DNA of 54,398 nucleotides. Origin: Methanoculleus methanifontis (GTDB taxonomy: Archaea > Halobacteriota > Methanomicrobia > Methanomicrobiales > Methanoculleaceae). Both the position numbers and the translations under genes were made by a program. Shown here one piece after another: positions 33,995-41,499 of the stretch. Under the pieces are notes generated by a model. That model was given only the letters and a program-made list of their open reading frames with translations. It ran no database searches and was not told where the DNA came from. Location of the stretch: the NCBI RefSeq assembly GCF_030464365.1, contig NZ_VCYI01000017.1, positions 1 through 54,398 on the forward strand, given 5' to 3'. The stretch's first letter is position 1; the number at the start of each line of letters is the position of its first letter.

Positions 33995-35074
33995 TCAGCC
34001 ACGCTTCCGTATACCGACGAGCAGGGTTGCTCCGGCCAGGGCCGCAAGACCGGTAAGCCACGAGAACGGCAGCCCGGCCCGCTGCACGGCGGTCGCCGAC
34101 GCCACGGGGTCGGGCGTCAGGGAGGGCTCGGTGAGGGGGGCAGTCGTCGCCGCGGTCTCCTCCACCGACGCGGTCTCGATAAAGACGGCAACCAGGGTGA
34201 AGTGCGGGATCGCGCCGACGACCGTGCGGGTCGAGGGACGAACCGTCGTTGCGAGGGGTTCCCATGCGCTGGTTTCGCTGTTGTACCAGCAGACGACGAA
34301 GCGCTCCCCAGCCCCCGACTGCTCCCACTCCTCCGGGGTGAGGGTGAACGAGACCTCGATCGGCGGGTCGAAGGTTGCACCGTCAGGACCGCACCGGAGT
34401 GCCCGGCCGATTGGTTCTCCTCCCTCACCTAGCGTGGGGAGGTCGGCGGGAGGGACACTCCTGACGCTCACCGTACTGAGCGGCCTCCCGAAACGGCCCT
34501 CTGCCCGGACACCCGGAGCGATGGAGAGGGTGGCATCCCCCTCCGTGGTGGTGACGACGGTCGCAAACTGAACCGCACCTTCAGCATCGGTCTGCAGAGA
34601 ACCGCTCCCGGTGTACTCCATCACCGGTGCTGCAGGCATGAATGAGCCAAATGAACCACCACCGCCGCCGCCACCAGACGACCCGGAAGAGCCGCCGGAA
34701 GAACCACCGGATCCGCTACCCTTCGTCACCGCGAGAGCAAGGCTTGAGGAGGTGCCAGGGGTGTAGACCGCGGTCTTGGAGGCTTTAACCCCGTCGACAA
34801 GGAAAGTGATGGTCTTCCCGGCATCACCCTCCTCTCCGCTGACGACCAAGCGCTCGTCAAAAAGGGCATCCCCGCCGTAGACACCAGCAGTGGTGAGGGT
34901 GAGCGAGCCACAGTCGCGATCTCCAATCCGGGCGGTGATGACGGTCCCGGCCGGCGCGGAGTTCCCGTCGATCGTGACAGAGCCCGAGAACTCTGCCGGG
35001 AGGGCGGGAAACGCGGATGCAGGCGCCGCGAGGGCGAGGAGGATGAGGAGCCAGAGCATTCGTCTCATCCGCAT
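33995..35074 (-). CDS. Membrane-anchored surface protein with Gly/Ser linker
   Basis: 359 aa from ATG 35074 (AGGAG 4-5 nt upstream); the ATG overlaps the stop of the previous gene, so translation is coupled. Signal peptide (LWLLILLALAAPASAF), an Ig-like domain to about residue 115, then a Ser/Gly linker of about 25 residues. The next domain (YTGSGSLQTDAEGAVQFATV) is homologous to the C-terminal domain of the protein at 10133-12073. A membrane helix (WLTGLAALAGATLLVGI) ends in RKRG. It may tether the preceding 1145-aa secreted protein. Confidence 0.82.
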   Translation of the reverse strand: MRMRRMLWLLILLALAAPASAFPALPAEFSGSVTIDGNSAPAGTVITARIGDRDCGSLTLTTAGVYGGDALFDERLVVSGEEGDAGKTITFLVDGVKASKTAVYTPGTSSSLALAVTKGSGSGGSSGGSSGSSGGGGGGGSFGSFMPAAPVMEYTGSGSLQTDAEGAVQFATVVTTTEGDATLSIAPGVRAEGRFGRPLSTVSVRSVPPADLPTLGEGGEPIGRALRCGPDGATFDPPIEVSFTLTPEEWEQSGAGERFVVCWYNSETSAWEPLATTVRPSTRTVVGAIPHFTLVAVFIETASVEETAATTAPLTEPSLTPDPVASATAVQRAGLPFSWLTGLAALAGATLLVGIRKRG

Positions 35075-38000
35075 CACGCTCCTATGGCGCCGAGGGTGCC
35101 CGGCTCGGTCATGTGGAGCCAGTAGCCCCGGCCCTGGTATACCAGTCTATCATCGGCGTATTCCCCGCTCCCGCCGTTGACGATCCCTGCCTCGAAGGTC
35201 TGTGTCGTGGCATCATGCCCGATCAGGTTCGACCACTGCCCCTTGACCGAGTGGAAGGCGTCCCGTGCCGTGGCCGGAGTGCTGCCGGTGATTCCGACGG
35301 CGTTCCAGCCGGCCGCGAGGGCGCGCTCCGCCGGCGAAATGAGGGGATCGGTCGAGAAGTTGAGCGGGACTGTCGCGGGCCCGGCCGAGTAGATCCAGTA
35401 TCCTTCGAGGGGGGCGAGGCGGTCGGTCAGCTTGAGGTTTATCCAGCTCCTGTTGGCGGTGTCGTAGCGGAGGGCCGAGTGGCCGTCAACGTCGACGCCG
35501 GCAAAGATCGCCGTGGTGTCGTTGCCAGCCGCGAGGGGCCGGGGGATTGAGACGAAGTTCCAGCCCGGCGAGAGGGTGAGGTTGTCGCCGGGGAGCGGGG
35601 CCGGGTCGCCCACGACGGCGATCGCACGGGAGAGGGCCTGGCTCCCGTCGACGAAGACAGTGACCGTCGCGGTGCCCTGGTCGACCCCCTCGATGGCAAA
35701 GGAGATCGTGCCGTCATTGGGTCCCTGCTTCGTGCCGAGAACCGTCAGGTCGGCGATGATGCTCGTGGCCGCGGCCTCCCCGCGGAGGGTGACGAGACTG
35801 AGGGTCCCACTTGGAATGTTGCGGGGCTGGCTGATCCGGACCTCACCGTTCGGGCCGGCGTTGTAGCGCATAATGACGGAGTCCCCATCCGGGAGCTCTG
35901 CCGTAAGCTCGGTCCAGTCCGTGCCTTTCGTGTAGGCGTTCACCTCTCCCGAGGTGAGGGCGAAGGGGAGGGTGAGGTCTCGAATCGTAAAAGCGAATGT
36001 CTCTTCCGGATTCGCGGCGAAGTCGCCGCGGATGCCGAGCGAGAAGGCAGCACCGTCGGGAAGGTCGCTAAAGTCAACAGTGATAGTTTCTCCGGGCGTG
36101 ATCGCGTCAGGGCTGATGTTGAACGTCGCCTCTCCAACAATAAAGGTGAAATTCGCATAGATGTCATCGATGTTCGGAGAGTCGAGGGCGTTGATCAGCG
36201 CACTTGCCGCGTCGGCAGCCCCCAGGTTGCCAAGAACCACTGGAATTATACCGTTACCCGAGATTGTAAGCGGATCCAGATGCGAAACCCAGATATCGAA
36301 GCCATTACATCCTGGGTTCTGAACGATCACGTAATACCGGCCTTCCGTGAGATCACTGGTGTCAGCGCCTGCAAGAACGTACTCGAAGGTGCCGTCACTC
36401 TCCACCGTCGCGGCTCCAGAATGGTAATAATCCGGGCCGAGGATCCAGACCTGGACGGCGTACGGGTAGCCCGTTGCAATCCCGCTAACCCGATAGTCGT
36501 CACCCGGGGTAAGGGTGGCCCCGGATGGCTGTATAGTGAGAGAGGGAGCCCTCAGCACGATGGATGTCGTGGCGAGCCTGACGCCGGTGAGGTTTCCCTT
36601 GCCTTGAGGTTGTGCAGCGGCGTAAATCGTGTAGCCGCTGGCATTAAGACGCCTGCCGACGTCGGCAGTGTTCCACTTGTAGGACCAGGTGTCGTCGGCC
36701 TCGACGTACACGCGGGTGAAGGTCGCCGGGTCGCCGTTCTCCACCGGGGTGGTCACGTCCAGGAGCCTGACGCCGTTGGTCGGGAGGTTCGGACCGGTCA
36801 GGAAGAGGTAGGTGGTGTCGCTGTCGCTGTTGGTTCCGGAGAGGGTGATCTCCTCGCCGATGTAGTAGACACCGGTGCCGGAGGCGGTGATGGTGACCGA
36901 GCCGGTCTCGACCCTCACACGGACCTCGTCGTACCTGCTTGCGTCACGGGAGTCGGTAACGCGGAGGGTGTAACTTGCCTCTCTCGTGGCCGTGTTGGTG
37001 AGCAGTTCGACAGACCGGGTGCCGGCTGCAGTGATTCTGACGGTGACGTTGTTCACATCAGCCGTGGGGGTCACACCGAGCTGGTTCGCGCGGAACGTCG
37101 GGGGCTGTGCACCGGGGTTCTCGATAGTCAGGAAGTAGTCCTGCCCGGATTCGCCGGTGATGGTCACGGTGAACGGGTTGCCACGAACAACCGTGTCCTT
37201 GTTCGACGTGATGCCTACCGCTCCGGAGGTAACCTGGAAGATCACAGTGTTGGAATCAAGACCCTTACCGTAGAAATCAGAGGTGCTGGGCCACTTCGCT
37301 TGGGCGGTGTAGGTCCCGGCCTCGACACCAGTCAGGTTGATAGGGGCCATATGTACAGTCGTGCCGTTCATCGGGATGGCCGTGAGGTCAACACCGCCGA
37401 ATAGGTTTGTCACGCCGCCGCCAGGCAGGGTGACGTCGATCTTCATGGCGGGTGGGGCAGCGACATCTAGGTTGCTGAACCCATTCAGGTTGTTCGTCAA
37501 CTTAAATGCCAGGGCAGTGTTCCGGGATATGGATCTGCCGTTCACGGAGTCCAGTCGCGAATTGTTCAGTACAACATCGAGCACTACGTTCGGGGTAGGT
37601 GTTGGTACCTGGGATCGTTCAAAAACTCGGACACAATGATCATCTGAGTTTGCCACATAGACAGTGCCGTCGGCATCAACTGCTATCCCGTTACAAACGT
37701 AGAACGGATCGGTAGATATTGCAAGCAGATTCCCGGAACTGTCAAACTTCTGGATAGGCCGATTCCATTGCGTTACATAAACATTACCATCGGTATCAGT
37801 CGTTAATCCCTCCGGGTACCGGAACTGCCCATCGCCAGAACCCTCTGTGCCCCATTTCAGGAGGAACGTGCCCGTGCCATCAAACTTCTGAATGCGGTTA
37901 TTGTAGCAGTCCGCGACATAGACGTTGCCGGCACCATCGACCGCGACATCCGTCGGGTTGTTGAACTCCCCATCATAGGTGCCAAGTGCTCCCCATGCGG

Positions 38001-38511
38001 TAAGGAAGTTCCCATCGCTACCGAACTTCTTAATCCCGCCTCCTGCGATGACATAGGCGTTGCCGTCGGTATCAAAAGCGATGCTCCGGGGAGATTGGAG
38101 TTGCTCTTCGCCGCTGCCATAGGATCCCCACTTCTTAATGAACGTCCCGTTACCAGCGAACACCTGTATGCGGGAACCATCTACCACATACACCATTCCA
38201 TCAGCATCCAAAGCGATATTCCGCGGAGAGTAAAACTCGCCGTCACCAGAACCCCTTGTCCCCCATTTCAGGAGAAACGCACCGGTATTGTCGAATTTCT
38301 GGATTCGGTCATTACCAGTATCCGCCACATAGACATTCCCCTCACCATCGACCGCAATCCCGGTCGGATTATTGAACCGCCCGTCATCCGCGCCGAGCGA
38401 TCCCCACGTGGCGACGAGTTCGTACTCGCCGACCTCAGACGCCAACGCAGGCGGGCAGGCGAGAACCGCCAGCAGAGAAATTACGACAAATAGACCATAT
38501 TTTCCGATCAT
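35074..38511 (-). CDS. Large NHL-propeller surface protein (1145 aa)
   Basis: Signal peptide (FVVISLLAVLACPPALA). Residues about 30-310 carry six NHL repeats (for example FNNPTGIAVDGEGNVYVADTGNDRIQKF in two halves), forming a beta-propeller. A DUF3821-like region follows at about 310-700 (LTGVEAGTYTAQAKW, VVRGNPFTVTITGESGQDY), with a repeat of the same fold. About 790-960 is the module with LPDGAAFSLGIRGDF, homologous to the protein at 8877-10046. The C-terminal domain (NLTLSPGWNFVSIPRPL, LAPLEGYWIYSAG) resembles anchored methanogen surface modules. No C-terminal helix; the coupled downstream gene has one. Confidence 0.85.
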   Translation of the reverse strand: MIGKYGLFVVISLLAVLACPPALASEVGEYELVATWGSLGADDGRFNNPTGIAVDGEGNVYVADTGNDRIQKFDNTGAFLLKWGTRGSGDGEFYSPRNIALDADGMVYVVDGSRIQVFAGNGTFIKKWGSYGSGEEQLQSPRSIAFDTDGNAYVIAGGGIKKFGSDGNFLTAWGALGTYDGEFNNPTDVAVDGAGNVYVADCYNNRIQKFDGTGTFLLKWGTEGSGDGQFRYPEGLTTDTDGNVYVTQWNRPIQKFDSSGNLLAISTDPFYVCNGIAVDADGTVYVANSDDHCVRVFERSQVPTPTPNVVLDVVLNNSRLDSVNGRSISRNTALAFKLTNNLNGFSNLDVAAPPAMKIDVTLPGGGVTNLFGGVDLTAIPMNGTTVHMAPINLTGVEAGTYTAQAKWPSTSDFYGKGLDSNTVIFQVTSGAVGITSNKDTVVRGNPFTVTITGESGQDYFLTIENPGAQPPTFRANQLGVTPTADVNNVTVRITAAGTRSVELLTNTATREASYTLRVTDSRDASRYDEVRVRVETGSVTITASGTGVYYIGEEITLSGTNSDSDTTYLFLTGPNLPTNGVRLLDVTTPVENGDPATFTRVYVEADDTWSYKWNTADVGRRLNASGYTIYAAAQPQGKGNLTGVRLATTSIVLRAPSLTIQPSGATLTPGDDYRVSGIATGYPYAVQVWILGPDYYHSGAATVESDGTFEYVLAGADTSDLTEGRYYVIVQNPGCNGFDIWVSHLDPLTISGNGIIPVVLGNLGAADAASALINALDSPNIDDIYANFTFIVGEATFNISPDAITPGETITVDFSDLPDGAAFSLGIRGDFAANPEETFAFTIRDLTLPFALTSGEVNAYTKGTDWTELTAELPDGDSVIMRYNAGPNGEVRISQPRNIPSGTLSLVTLRGEAAATSIIADLTVLGTKQGPNDGTISFAIEGVDQGTATVTVFVDGSQALSRAIAVVGDPAPLPGDNLTLSPGWNFVSIPRPLAAGNDTTAIFAGVDVDGHSALRYDTANRSWINLKLTDRLAPLEGYWIYSAGPATVPLNFSTDPLISPAERALAAGWNAVGITGSTPATARDAFHSVKGQWSNLIGHDATTQTFEAGIVNGGSGEYADDRLVYQGRGYWLHMTEPGTLGAIGA

Positions 38512-38851
38512 ACCTCTCCCTCCGGGCTCCCCGTGCCAGCATCCGCCCGGAGAGGCCTGCGGGAACCGTGATCAGAGATCGTATGCGGAACAATGGCATT
38601 AAAGGGGGGATAAGCCTTCCGATTGTTTCTCGGGACTGTCTGAAGCCCCTGTTTCATTATGCAAAATGATTTTGAAGCGATAGACAAACCACGATTACCA
38701 GGCCGGGTCCCGGGTCCGGGGGGGAAGCGGTTCTGCGGGTGGTCGTGCCCGCCGGCAGGGCTAAAGAACCGCCAACCAATCCGCGCGCTGATGGTGTTCC
38801 CCTCCAGACACTCCTCCTTGGGGTTCATCAACCTGGTTTCGCTGGCAGGTA
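38512..38851. other. Gene-free 340-bp stretch
   Basis: No gene I can support. It should contain the promoter of the large surface protein gene (an A/T-rich patch near 38590-38610) and the 3' flank of the accessory gene. The open frames on both strands lack codon bias. Confidence 0.5.
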
Positions 38852-40660
38852 TCAGGGAGAATTCGGGTATATAAGGTCAATGATCTCGTTAATTGTTGGC
38901 ACAATCTTTCTTCGCTCTTCCATCCCTTTTTCGAACGATATTACGTTCGGGTGAACTGCTTTGTTCCGTATCCCAGCTACCAAACCGCATTTCTCTGCCA
39001 CCCCAATAAACCTGCCCGATGAGCCCTGATCAAGCAGCCAGTGCAATTCAATCACGAAAGAACTCTCAGGAAATTTGATCAGATCATTTGGTAATCGGGC
39101 CCATTGACCCAGCGTAATCTGTTTTCCAGAAGGTTGATCCGAATACCAAAAGGACTTCAAAAGTCTACCCTCATCCTTGGACTGATACTGAACGCTCTGA
39201 GGGATACTTTTTCCATGTGCTCCTCGTAGTTGGTCACCGATCCTTCGTGTAATCTCCTGATGCAACAATTTCTCCAATCCTTTTCCATACTGCCATATAA
39301 GAGACGAACCCGCATCTGGAGGATTGTTTGGGTTCCGATAAGAATGGACTGTTGCCCGATCCGCACTTGCAAGGATCTTCTTTGCATCTGGATCGATGAT
39401 CTTTTCGAGCGCGATCATAGGTTGATCGGCCGGGAAATCGCTCGCCATACCCGCGCGAGCCCCGTGGATGGCCCGGAAGTACACATTCCCAATTGAATCC
39501 TCCGGGTTGATTGAGCACAACTGATCTTCGGTATAGTGAATAAGTTGCTGAGCGATACTCTCTCCAAACGCAGACAGAGCATTATCGCCCGCACCAACCG
39601 GGGAAAAGACGTGCAAGACGTCACACTCCACTCCACTCTCTGCAACCATCCCCTTGAAACTCTGCCAGTTTATGAGATCCCGATAGTAGTAGATACCTGT
39701 AAAATCGAAAATTCGCCGGATGCCTCGGGATCTGACATAGTCGAAGAGGACCTTCGTCAGGAAATCACTATCCAGCCATATCCATTGAACCGGATCATCG
39801 TCGTAGAGCGGTATCGAGTAGAGCTGCACCGGGTCGACAGGTGTTATGACCCCATACAGGCCGGATAGAATCAGGAAGTGGTGCCCGGAGTTCATCACAG
39901 CCCTTTTGCCGCGAACCTTAAGGCTCTGGTAAAATCGCCCCTCATATCTCCAGAGCGCAGGGAGATAGAAACCCTCCTCAGAACCACCAAAATCTCGGCC
40001 GCTTACCAGGTACTGGTTATAGGGATGATCTTTCTGGTCTGCCTTGTCAAAAAGGATCTTCCCCTGAGACAGAGCCCTAAAAACCTCCTTCCTTCTGGAT
40101 ACGATTTCATCATGGTAATCCGGGAGGTATCTCGCGTAGATCGTGTCACCCTCATTGTAATACGGAAACCCCTCTTCCGCCTTCCGGAACGAACAGATTG
40201 TAAGGAATAGCACCCCACTCCGGGGATTGTAGATCCCATCATTCTCGTGAGCCAGAGAAGCGATACTGCCGAGATCACTGAAGAGCGTGATCTTGAGCCC
40301 GGCGTCTTTGAGTCTCTCTATGAGGTCTCGATACAACGGGTGGAACTTCGAGTCGTTCGGATCCCCATAGAAGAATATCTCATATTTCTCCAGGCTCTTT
40401 TCGGCCCTGGAGACAAGCTGCTCAAACTCCGCAGGAGTGACCGTATCGGGCGGTTTGTCGTACCATTTCTTACACTCTCCCGGAAACCATACTCCATACT
40501 CATCTGAAAAGATCGCCCAGAACGCATCGGCCGCCTTGCATGCCTGGATAAATATCTGGATTCGCTCGCTGGTATACAGTCTGTCAGGGGTCACTGCCTC
40601 GCTGGTTTTTTTGAATGAGTCATCCTTCTGCCAACTGCAGTACGTGAGGAATATCTTCAT
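38852..40660 (-). CDS. Unusual protein: tandem YaaA/DUF6884-like segments plus HEPN-like C-terminus
   Basis: 602 aa from ATG 40660; a GTG at 40699 is possible. The A/T-rich TATACATTTAT just upstream would make the ATG leaderless. Segment 1 (1-130: IFLTYCSWQKDD, RLYTSERIQIFI, WAIFSDEYGVWFPG) resembles DUF6884/YaaA. Segment 2 (about 150-370: SGVLFLTICSFRKA, LSGLYGVITPVDPVQLYSI) looks like a second YaaA-type unit. The C-terminus (about 455-602) has LGQW, SSFVIELHWLL and RNKAVHP, where Arg565-x4-His570 fits the HEPN RNase motif. The gene is clearly more A/T-rich than its neighbours, suggesting transfer. Function not established; a defence role is inferred. Confidence 0.7.
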   Translation of the reverse strand: MKIFLTYCSWQKDDSFKKTSEAVTPDRLYTSERIQIFIQACKAADAFWAIFSDEYGVWFPGECKKWYDKPPDTVTPAEFEQLVSRAEKSLEKYEIFFYGDPNDSKFHPLYRDLIERLKDAGLKITLFSDLGSIASLAHENDGIYNPRSGVLFLTICSFRKAEEGFPYYNEGDTIYARYLPDYHDEIVSRRKEVFRALSQGKILFDKADQKDHPYNQYLVSGRDFGGSEEGFYLPALWRYEGRFYQSLKVRGKRAVMNSGHHFLILSGLYGVITPVDPVQLYSIPLYDDDPVQWIWLDSDFLTKVLFDYVRSRGIRRIFDFTGIYYYRDLINWQSFKGMVAESGVECDVLHVFSPVGAGDNALSAFGESIAQQLIHYTEDQLCSINPEDSIGNVYFRAIHGARAGMASDFPADQPMIALEKIIDPDAKKILASADRATVHSYRNPNNPPDAGSSLIWQYGKGLEKLLHQEITRRIGDQLRGAHGKSIPQSVQYQSKDEGRLLKSFWYSDQPSGKQITLGQWARLPNDLIKFPESSFVIELHWLLDQGSSGRFIGVAEKCGLVAGIRNKAVHPNVISFEKGMEERRKIVPTINEIIDLIYPNSP

Positions 40661-40749
40661 GCATGAGGCATCAACCCATTTTGGGATAAATGTATACACC
40701 TTGCTTTCCGGGATTACTACACTCAGAGATTGTCCCGAAATGCCTCTGC

Positions 40750-40772
40750 CGGGAGGGGGACACCCCCTCCCG
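40750..40772. repeat. Perfect G/C hairpin, copy 2
   Basis: Ten-base arms CGGGAGGGGG and CCCCCTCCCG around ACA, sharing the nine-base core of the hairpin at 23180-23202. It lies 90 bp upstream of the accessory gene start, with no T-run following. Confidence 0.8.
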
Positions 40773-40928
40773 TTCCCTCCCTCGCGGGGCGATATCCAAT
40801 GGGAAGCCGTGTCAGTAACTTTGACTCAATATACTGTTCAATTGTCTAAAAACGTGTGTAAGAGCGCTCTGAATCATGTTAATATTTGATTATTACATGC
40901 TTTTGGGATGTGCTCTCAATCAACCGGT

Positions 40929-41138
40929 CTACAGTGAATCCTCCCTCCTCCGGCACCCCAGAACCCCTGCAACGGCCGCACCGAGATCCCTCTCAACCGA
41001 GACCCTGCGCTCCCGGGTATAGTCGCCGCTCCCGCGGGAGTAACTCCGGACGAACCGTATCGCACCGGCAGGCCCGAGGCTCTTCACCAGCGCCTCAAAC
41101 CCCCGGGTCCGGATCTCGTCAAGCGTCTTCGCTCCCAT
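40929..41138 (-). CDS. Small antitoxin-like protein (69 aa)
   Basis: Start ATG 41138 with GGAGGTG 8 nt upstream. The N-terminal half, MGAKTLDEIRTRGFEALVKS then LGPAGAIRFVRSYSRGSGDYTRERR, resembles small proteins of archaea and cyanobacteria often found beside toxins. After ERR the sequence becomes unlike that family, and a shifted frame gives RLRGISV, so a frameshift is possible. No toxin gene is adjacent apart from the large gene 268 bp downstream on the same strand. Confidence 0.6.
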   Translation of the reverse strand: MGAKTLDEIRTRGFEALVKSLGPAGAIRFVRSYSRGSGDYTRERRVSVERDLGAAVAGVLGCRRREDSL

Positions 41139-41301
41139 CGGCAATCCACCTCCATGAGCCGCTGCGCAGGATTGTATACCCAGATAGGGATCTATCCGAT
41201 AATAACCCTGATGAGAACATCATCCGTCGTGAGCAGTACAGCACCGGCACTCTCAGCAGGTGCAAGGTGCAGAACATCTTCTCCCGAACCGGCACCTGCC
41301 C

Positions 41302-41364
41302 CTTATGGTCTAGTGGGACGACTTCGCCTACCCACGGCGACGTCATAACCAGCTAGACCATAAG
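41302..41364. repeat. Long cruciform with 12-bp perfect arms
   Basis: CTTATGGTCTAG (41302-41313) and CTAGACCATAAG (41353-41364) are perfect inverted copies. Inside, TGG/CCA, GAC/GTC and CGCC/GGCG can also pair, so the whole 63 nt could fold on either strand. The right half contains the 25-bp direct repeat shared with the tRNA-like element at 41456-41499. Confidence 0.85.
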
Positions 41365-41455
41365 CTCACGCCAGAAGTCGGCTGCATACAAGGCCCAACA
41401 GTCGTTCCACGCAAGTTTGACCGGGCTCTCGACCCACGGCCCACTCCATCTGTCC

Positions 41456-41499
41456 TCGCCTTGCCAGGGCGACGTCATAACCAGCTAGACCACGAGCCC
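41456..41499 (-). other. tRNA 5'-half-like sequence (Val-like)
   Basis: On the minus strand, GGGCUCG then GUGGUCUAGCUGGUUAUGAC resembles the acceptor strand and D-arm of archaeal tRNA-Val. It is followed by an anticodon-like stem UCGCC-CUGGCAA-GGCGA with anticodon position GGC. No T-arm or 3' acceptor strand follows, so it is not a functional tRNA. Bases 41468-41492 are an exact copy of 41336-41360. Confidence 0.65.

Follow-up and report, generated by a model that had tools for sequence, protein, structure and literature searches.

A three-domain protein of Methanoculleus methanifontis joins two YaaA/DUF6884-like units (D1 and D2) to a C-terminal HEPN-type domain (D3), and its predicted function is probably that of a one-gene antiviral or self-shutdown switch. 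The predicted active site of D3 is conserved, and relatives of the protein exchange their C-terminal modules and lie in defence islands. The YaaA/DUF6884-HEPN arrangement appears to be new, although HEPN effectors equipped with a sensor are already known. YaaA joined with HEPN or Schlafen is described nowhere in the literature searched, which covered few subscription papers, and within that scope the view of the initial annotation that no described system has this arrangement holds. Here, the window is the whole stretch of DNA that was analysed, 54,398 nucleotides in length.

Gene and domain layout

The three-domain gene (38852..40660, reverse strand) runs from an ATG at 40660 to a stop at 38852 and encodes 602 aa; a GTG at 40699, in frame upstream of the ATG, would lengthen the protein by 13 aa. 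D1, which is DUF6884-like, spans residues 1-140 (40241..40660, reverse strand) and carries C8-S-x-x-K12 and F-S-D-E-Y-G. It is followed by the YaaA-like D2, residues 141-405 (39446..40240, reverse strand), with C156-S-F-R-K160 and L265-S-G-L-Y-G270. The HEPN-type D3 occupies about residues 413-602 (38855..39424, reverse strand) and includes R565-N-K-A-V-H570 (38951..38968, reverse strand), the predicted catalytic Rx4H motif. The open reading frame with this motif, first proposed from the letters of the window, is real: there are three intact or near-intact orthologues at 79-83% identity, Ka/Ks between intact orthologues is about 0.15 (below 0.2 in each of D1, D2 and D3), and the gene is under purifying selection.

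A PDB sequence search with the whole protein gave zero matches. The full-length predicted structure is poor (pLDDT 59.6), and neither the D1/D2 pocket nor contacts between D1/D2 and D3 are visible in it. A fold search with this model listed Csm6/Csx1 chains at a probability of 0.15 or less and was set aside because the model is too poor.

A HEPN domain at the C terminus

Chance alone would give 0.78 Rx4H motifs and 0.1 R[NDH]x3H motifs in a protein with this composition, so a lone Rx4H, being near chance expectation, is weak evidence. R565 and H570 are invariant in 20/20 D3 homologues, many of them at only 20-30% identity, as are E463, Y458, K460, L466, L517, W520, C558, N591 and I594; at the level of sequence, this settles that the Rx4H motif of D3 is under selection. 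The residue after the Arg is the polar N566 in the window protein and in 17/20 homologues, and G in three HEAT-type relatives. E463 sits in a long helix (450-482), where the Ex3[KR] form is absent, residue 467 being H.

In HEPN domains, which are helical bundles, Rx4-6H closes helix 3 and precedes helix 4 (PMC3710099); a polar residue (N, D or H) directly follows the Arg, and many families have a conserved acidic residue in helix 2, often as Ex3[KR]. The D3 model (md28c1565ca64, built from five sequences) agrees with this description: it is all-helical (pLDDT 84.9, pTM 0.83), and a long helix holding E463 is followed by an insert, then by a helix that the motif closes, and by a last helix (in model numbering, helix 141-160, motif 156-161 and last helix 167-188). 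Structure comparisons place HepT, a HEPN toxin and Csm6 with the top natural structures, at Z 5.8-6.6, where they tie with helical bundles of no relation, and Foldseek returned 6m6u (prob 0.63); these fold matches are only compatible with HEPN structures. The structure prediction of the three parts that had been suggested as a check thus gave a HEPN-like topology for D3 and little for the full-length protein.

Sequence families give a similar picture. The window D3 matches no HEPN family in Pfam, whereas one relative, L105, attains the cut-off of HEPN_MAE_28990 (26.8 bits) and has further matches to RiboL-PSP and Apea HEPN. A D3 profile searched against the PDB retrieved unrelated chains only, at E 0.1 or worse, and MobL, OSCP and similar weak Pfam matches of D3 relatives were dismissed as noise. 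The missing Pfam HEPN match of the window D3, the poor full-length model and structural matches no better than helical bundles all count against an effector explanation of the protein. We regard D3 as a HEPN domain in which the predicted active site is complete, with a predicted RNase activity; the conserved R, H and E, the model topology and the Pfam match of L105 bear out the HEPN-like motif that the initial annotation had noticed. Like the HEPN RNases HEPN_MAE_28990, RiboL-PSP, Apea, HepT and Csm6/Csx1, D3 is an all-helical bundle with an Rx4H closing the penultimate long helix and a conserved helix-2 acidic residue, and like Csm6 the window protein has a proposed sensor part and HEPN in one chain. 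It differs from these RNases in that D3 forms its own family, the proposed sensor is YaaA-like rather than CARF, and an MNT antitoxin is absent.

Two YaaA/DUF6884-like units

Against Pfam, the whole protein scores 29.4 bits for PF03883 (cut-off 29.6) and 25.3 bits for DUF6884 (cut-off 30). D2 by itself passes the PF03883 (YaaA) cut-off, with 31.0 vs 29.6 bits, and a profile of 13 D2 relatives retrieves 5caj, a crystal structure of E. coli YaaA (E 4.7e-7). D1 stays under the 30-bit cut-off of PF21818 (DUF6884), scoring 19.7 bits in the window and 22.4-23.5 bits in two orthologues, and is therefore labelled DUF6884-like only; the family matches the corresponding D1 stretch in three orthologues, all below the cut-off. 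C8xxxK12 is present in D1, but FSDEYG stands where DUF6884 has LSAxxG, and the order of the motifs is that of the DUF6884 motifs in PMC11701544. Profiles of D1 and D2 match each other weakly, in register at the SxxYG motif. The proposal of two such units is thus upheld for the four Methanoculleus orthologues, to which D1 is confined, and fails as a rule, since the wider family has a single D2.

Exchanged C-termini and defence islands among D2 relatives

D2 was followed through 13 loci, twelve from Methanomicrobiales and one on a viral contig (L055); the genome-contig scan yielded five loci, all Methanomicrobiales, and the viral scans yielded the one contig. The Methanomicrobiales relatives have the same D2 unit at 32-43% identity and a C-terminal nuclease-type domain. 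They differ from the window protein in their other effector domains (Schlafen AlbA_2, Swt1-HEPN, RelE-like), and none has D1. D2 is joined to Schlafen AlbA_2 in L037, L038, L039, L041, L044 and L045 (E to 2.4e-14 where scanned), to a Swt1-like HEPN with RNxxxH in L030 and L036 (in L030, PDC-M34B at E 4.7e-6 and PF18731 at E 0.013), to a RelE/Gp49-like domain in L034 and L040 (E 0.001-0.005), and to a possible GIY-YIG in L055 (E 0.23). A HEAT-tailed variant of the D2 and D3 fusion occurs in G010, G025 and G029. Predicted nucleases are the common theme of these fusion partners. In the D2 tree the HEAT-type D3 fusions group with the Schlafen fusions (support 0.952), apart from the window family; since the two D3-bearing groups lie apart, effector modules appear to have been swapped among D2 relatives.

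PADLOC defence genes are present at 9/13 D2 loci (L030, L031, L034, L035, L036, L037, L041, L044 and L055), a raw count for which the window is the sole comparison. Near D2 are type I RM genes in L034, L037 and L055, DISARM-like DrmD/DrmMI in L030, Druantia DruE in L041, a type IV restriction enzyme in L044, NERD-UvrD in L031, PDC-S01 in L035, and pVip with CARF in L034 and L036. Among the neighbours that were scanned in L038, L039, L040 and L045, no defence genes were identified. On the viral contig (IMGVR_UViG_3300037418_003871) the YaaA-like fusion, L055:7484-9283(+), lies beside an integrase-like gene and a type I RM set, a hint that the YaaA-like unit is also carried by mobile elements in bacteria. 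Neither the whole window protein nor this bacterial-type relative found a match by tblastn in plasmid and phage collections, and matches of the Schlafen relative L044 in such collections were limited to its Schlafen domain.

Sensor or enzyme

Because the D2-type fold is joined in turn to several RNase-type domains, it is most simply read as the sensor or control part and the RNase as the executioner. D1 and D2 would together bind nucleic acid or nucleobases and serve as the sensor and regulatory part, and D3 would be a metal-independent endoribonuclease acting through R565, H570 and probably E463. In a resting cell, the N-terminal units would keep D3 inactive. The trigger would be a nucleic acid or nucleotide that is modified, damaged or foreign and that most likely arises during virus infection; its binding would free the RNase, which would cut cellular or viral RNA and halt growth or virus production. 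RNase activity, autoinhibition, the trigger and an antiviral function are what we infer for the window copy. Such a single-gene RNase effector, in which a D1/D2 sensor releases a HEPN endoribonuclease on a trigger and so acts against viruses or stops growth, has in our judgement an even chance of being the right description.

A different and unlikely reading is that the YaaA/DUF6884 units are themselves an enzyme, performing DpdC-like base modification or hydrolysis on DNA or RNA, with D3 as an RNA-binding, dimerising presenter of substrate; repair or RNA modification would be an example of the setting. YaaA (PF03883) and DUF6884 (PF21818) proteins, including DpdC and YfjM, have the CxxxK and LSxLYG motifs in common with the window protein, and homology is detectable. 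For DUF6884/YaaA proteins, DNA binding with flipping of a base into a pocket has been proposed, and the Pfam authors suggest a base-flipping active site built from CxxxK and LSAxxG (PMC11701544). DpdC, the name given to DUF6884 in PMC11888242, is assigned to the YaaA/DUF6884 fold and hydrolyses dPreQ0 to dADG in DNA (PMC12839542); that this relative of the D1/D2 fold is an enzyme and not a sensor counts against the effector explanation. D2 residues S157, K160, S266, Y269 and G270, unchanged across 13 diverse relatives, would suit an active site as well. The Cys of CxxxK, however, is replaced by Asp in several D2 relatives, and the repeated fusion of D2 to RNase-type domains also speaks against an enzyme. 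The YaaA/DUF6884 proteins described in the literature searched differ from the window protein in having no RNase fusion. D3 retains the whole RNase motif, which substrate-binding HEPN domains tend to lose (PMC3710099). A PADLOC scan of the ten neighbouring genes also found neither dpdA nor dpdB of the Dpd 7-deazaguanine DNA modification system.

A variable cassette among housekeeping genes

The full three-domain gene is present in 4/35 Methanoculleus species, one copy having a split reading frame. The split orthologue (L042:396-2263, from the MAG G025) is interrupted close to where D3 begins and reads as two overlapping frames, through either gene decay or an error of assembly. The site is constant in all four species, with an NHL-repeat gene on one side and SulP where the contig extends there, and the same flanks are joined without the three-domain gene in G033, G005, G010 and G009. 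Nucleotide comparison of occupied (L032, L033, L042) with empty sites (L074, L075, L076, L077), together with composition, delimits an A/T-rich variable cassette at about 37216..40941 (no strand assigned) that holds the three-domain gene and the 5' part of the NHL-repeat gene. The A/T-richness of the gene on a GC-rich background, remarked on at the outset, is confirmed: its GC is 49.6% vs 64% in the window, and its GC3 57% vs 87% in SulP. Patchy presence, empty sites and purifying selection count for the effector explanation.

The NHL beta-propeller gene (35074..38511, reverse strand; 1145 aa; Pfam NHL E 5e-33) has paralogues in 34/35 genomes of the genus. It looks like a mosaic, with an A/T-rich 5' part found only in species holding the three-domain gene and a GC-rich 3' part found genus-wide, and this fits a cassette that may have been swapped by recombination inside a paralogue-rich NHL gene. 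As a functional partner the NHL-repeat gene was judged unlikely, given the large paralogue family and the co-inheritance of the 5' part only. Just upstream of the three-domain gene is an antitoxin-like 71-aa ORF (window 40929-41144, reverse strand); in G027 (L080:2370-3015) a like ORF overlaps an intact PIN-domain gene, and the window seems to hold only a remnant of such a PIN-domain gene. Two degenerate tRNA-like elements (41300-41370 and 41422-41499, reverse strand) lie upstream of SulP. They share an arm resembling tRNA-Val, and the second has a sub-threshold Rfam tRNA match. Repeats and tRNA-like fragments had been offered as signs of mobility, and neither is supported in that role: the tRNA-like elements occur upstream of SulP in several Methanoculleus genomes whether the three-domain gene is present or not; because relatives with no gene at the site have them too, they do not mark an insertion and were rejected as attachment-site remnants.

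A PADLOC scan of the ten neighbours, with LonB, a NifS/IscS-type aminotransferase, phosphomannomutase and an AI-2E transporter among them, found no convincing defence gene, which counts against the effector explanation. The only PADLOC match nearby, a DndA/SspA call, is the IscS/NifS-type aminotransferase. The defence gene context first suggested therefore belongs to the relatives, with D3 in viperin-TPR proteins and D2-RNase fusions in defence islands, and not to the window copy. The solitary position of the window copy amid housekeeping genes would sit well with an internally neutralised toxin serving general stress or dormancy, as under peroxide or DNA damage, rather than virus defence specifically. 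In E. coli, YaaA takes part in the response to oxidative stress, and YfjM (DUF6884) of B. subtilis is among the interactors of abasic and RNA-base lesions (PMC11701544). Against such a stress toxin stand the patchy occurrence of an A/T-rich cassette whose site is empty in sister species and the presence of D2 and D3 relatives in defence islands, and we give this explanation a low probability. The antiviral effector idea of the initial annotation is strengthened by the relatives of D2 and D3 beside defence genes and weakened by the setting of the window copy; the interpretation as a whole is partly supported.

D3 in archaeal viperin-TPR proteins

In PADLOC, D3 matches the C terminus of the TPR protein PDLC02907 (E 4.4e-14), and only the D3 part of the window protein matches. 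Elsewhere D3 is found at or near the C terminus of proteins that are about 1000-1300 aa long. The one TPR protein scanned in full, L036:10998-14024(-), matches PDLC02907 over its whole length (E 4e-209) and adjoins viperin (pVip) and a CARF/Csa3-like gene. At 12 loci (L034, L036, L046-L048 and L099-L105) a pVip gene is found no further than about 10 kb from D3 or from the TPR protein that contains it. D3 is C-terminal in the TPR proteins of these viperin clusters, and internal in the longest ones; another such protein that carries D3 in a viperin cluster is L034:5638-9387(+). Exceptions are G029, whose stretch ended within the TPR gene, and G023, which retains a frame of 239 aa.

PDLC02907 and the window protein thus have D3 in common, with identical invariant residues. 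PDLC02907 otherwise consists of TPR repeats and travels with viperin and a CARF/Csa3-like gene, whereas the window gene has neither. Judged from this shared domain, D3 is a candidate for the RNase effector in viperin-TPR systems. It is very improbable that the window protein is itself a stand-alone branch of the archaeal viperin pathway, with D3 answering viperin products or the associated CARF signalling: the common D3 and the D2 genes near viperin at two loci (L034 and L036) would favour it, but the majority of the D2 genes examined lack a neighbouring viperin, PADLOC found no pVip, TPR or CARF-like gene in the ten genes around the window gene, and the window genome yielded no further D3 gene.

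Implications for archaeal immunity

Taken beyond the single-gene effector, a broader proposal can be made, tentatively and with less confidence: YaaA/DUF6884 units may be an unrecognised class of sensor that responds to viral or modified nucleic acids and is coupled to interchangeable RNases, serving one-gene archaeal defence, and D3 may be the missing executioner of viperin systems. The YaaA-type fold has until now been known from stress response and DNA modification, and the repeated joining of a YaaA-like unit to differing RNases suggests that the fold doubles as a trigger module. If the proposal is true, the effectors placed on YaaA/DUF6884 sensors would comprise two kinds of HEPN, Schlafen AlbA_2, a RelE-like domain and perhaps GIY-YIG. 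The viperin system with a TPR protein is the sole archaea-exclusive system type in a recent survey (PMC12988326), which makes no mention of HEPN in that system, and no effector of this system is described in the literature searched. Little is known of archaeal immunity outside CRISPR and restriction (PMC12988326), and a HEPN domain common to both proteins would give the viperin-TPR protein a testable RNase activity.
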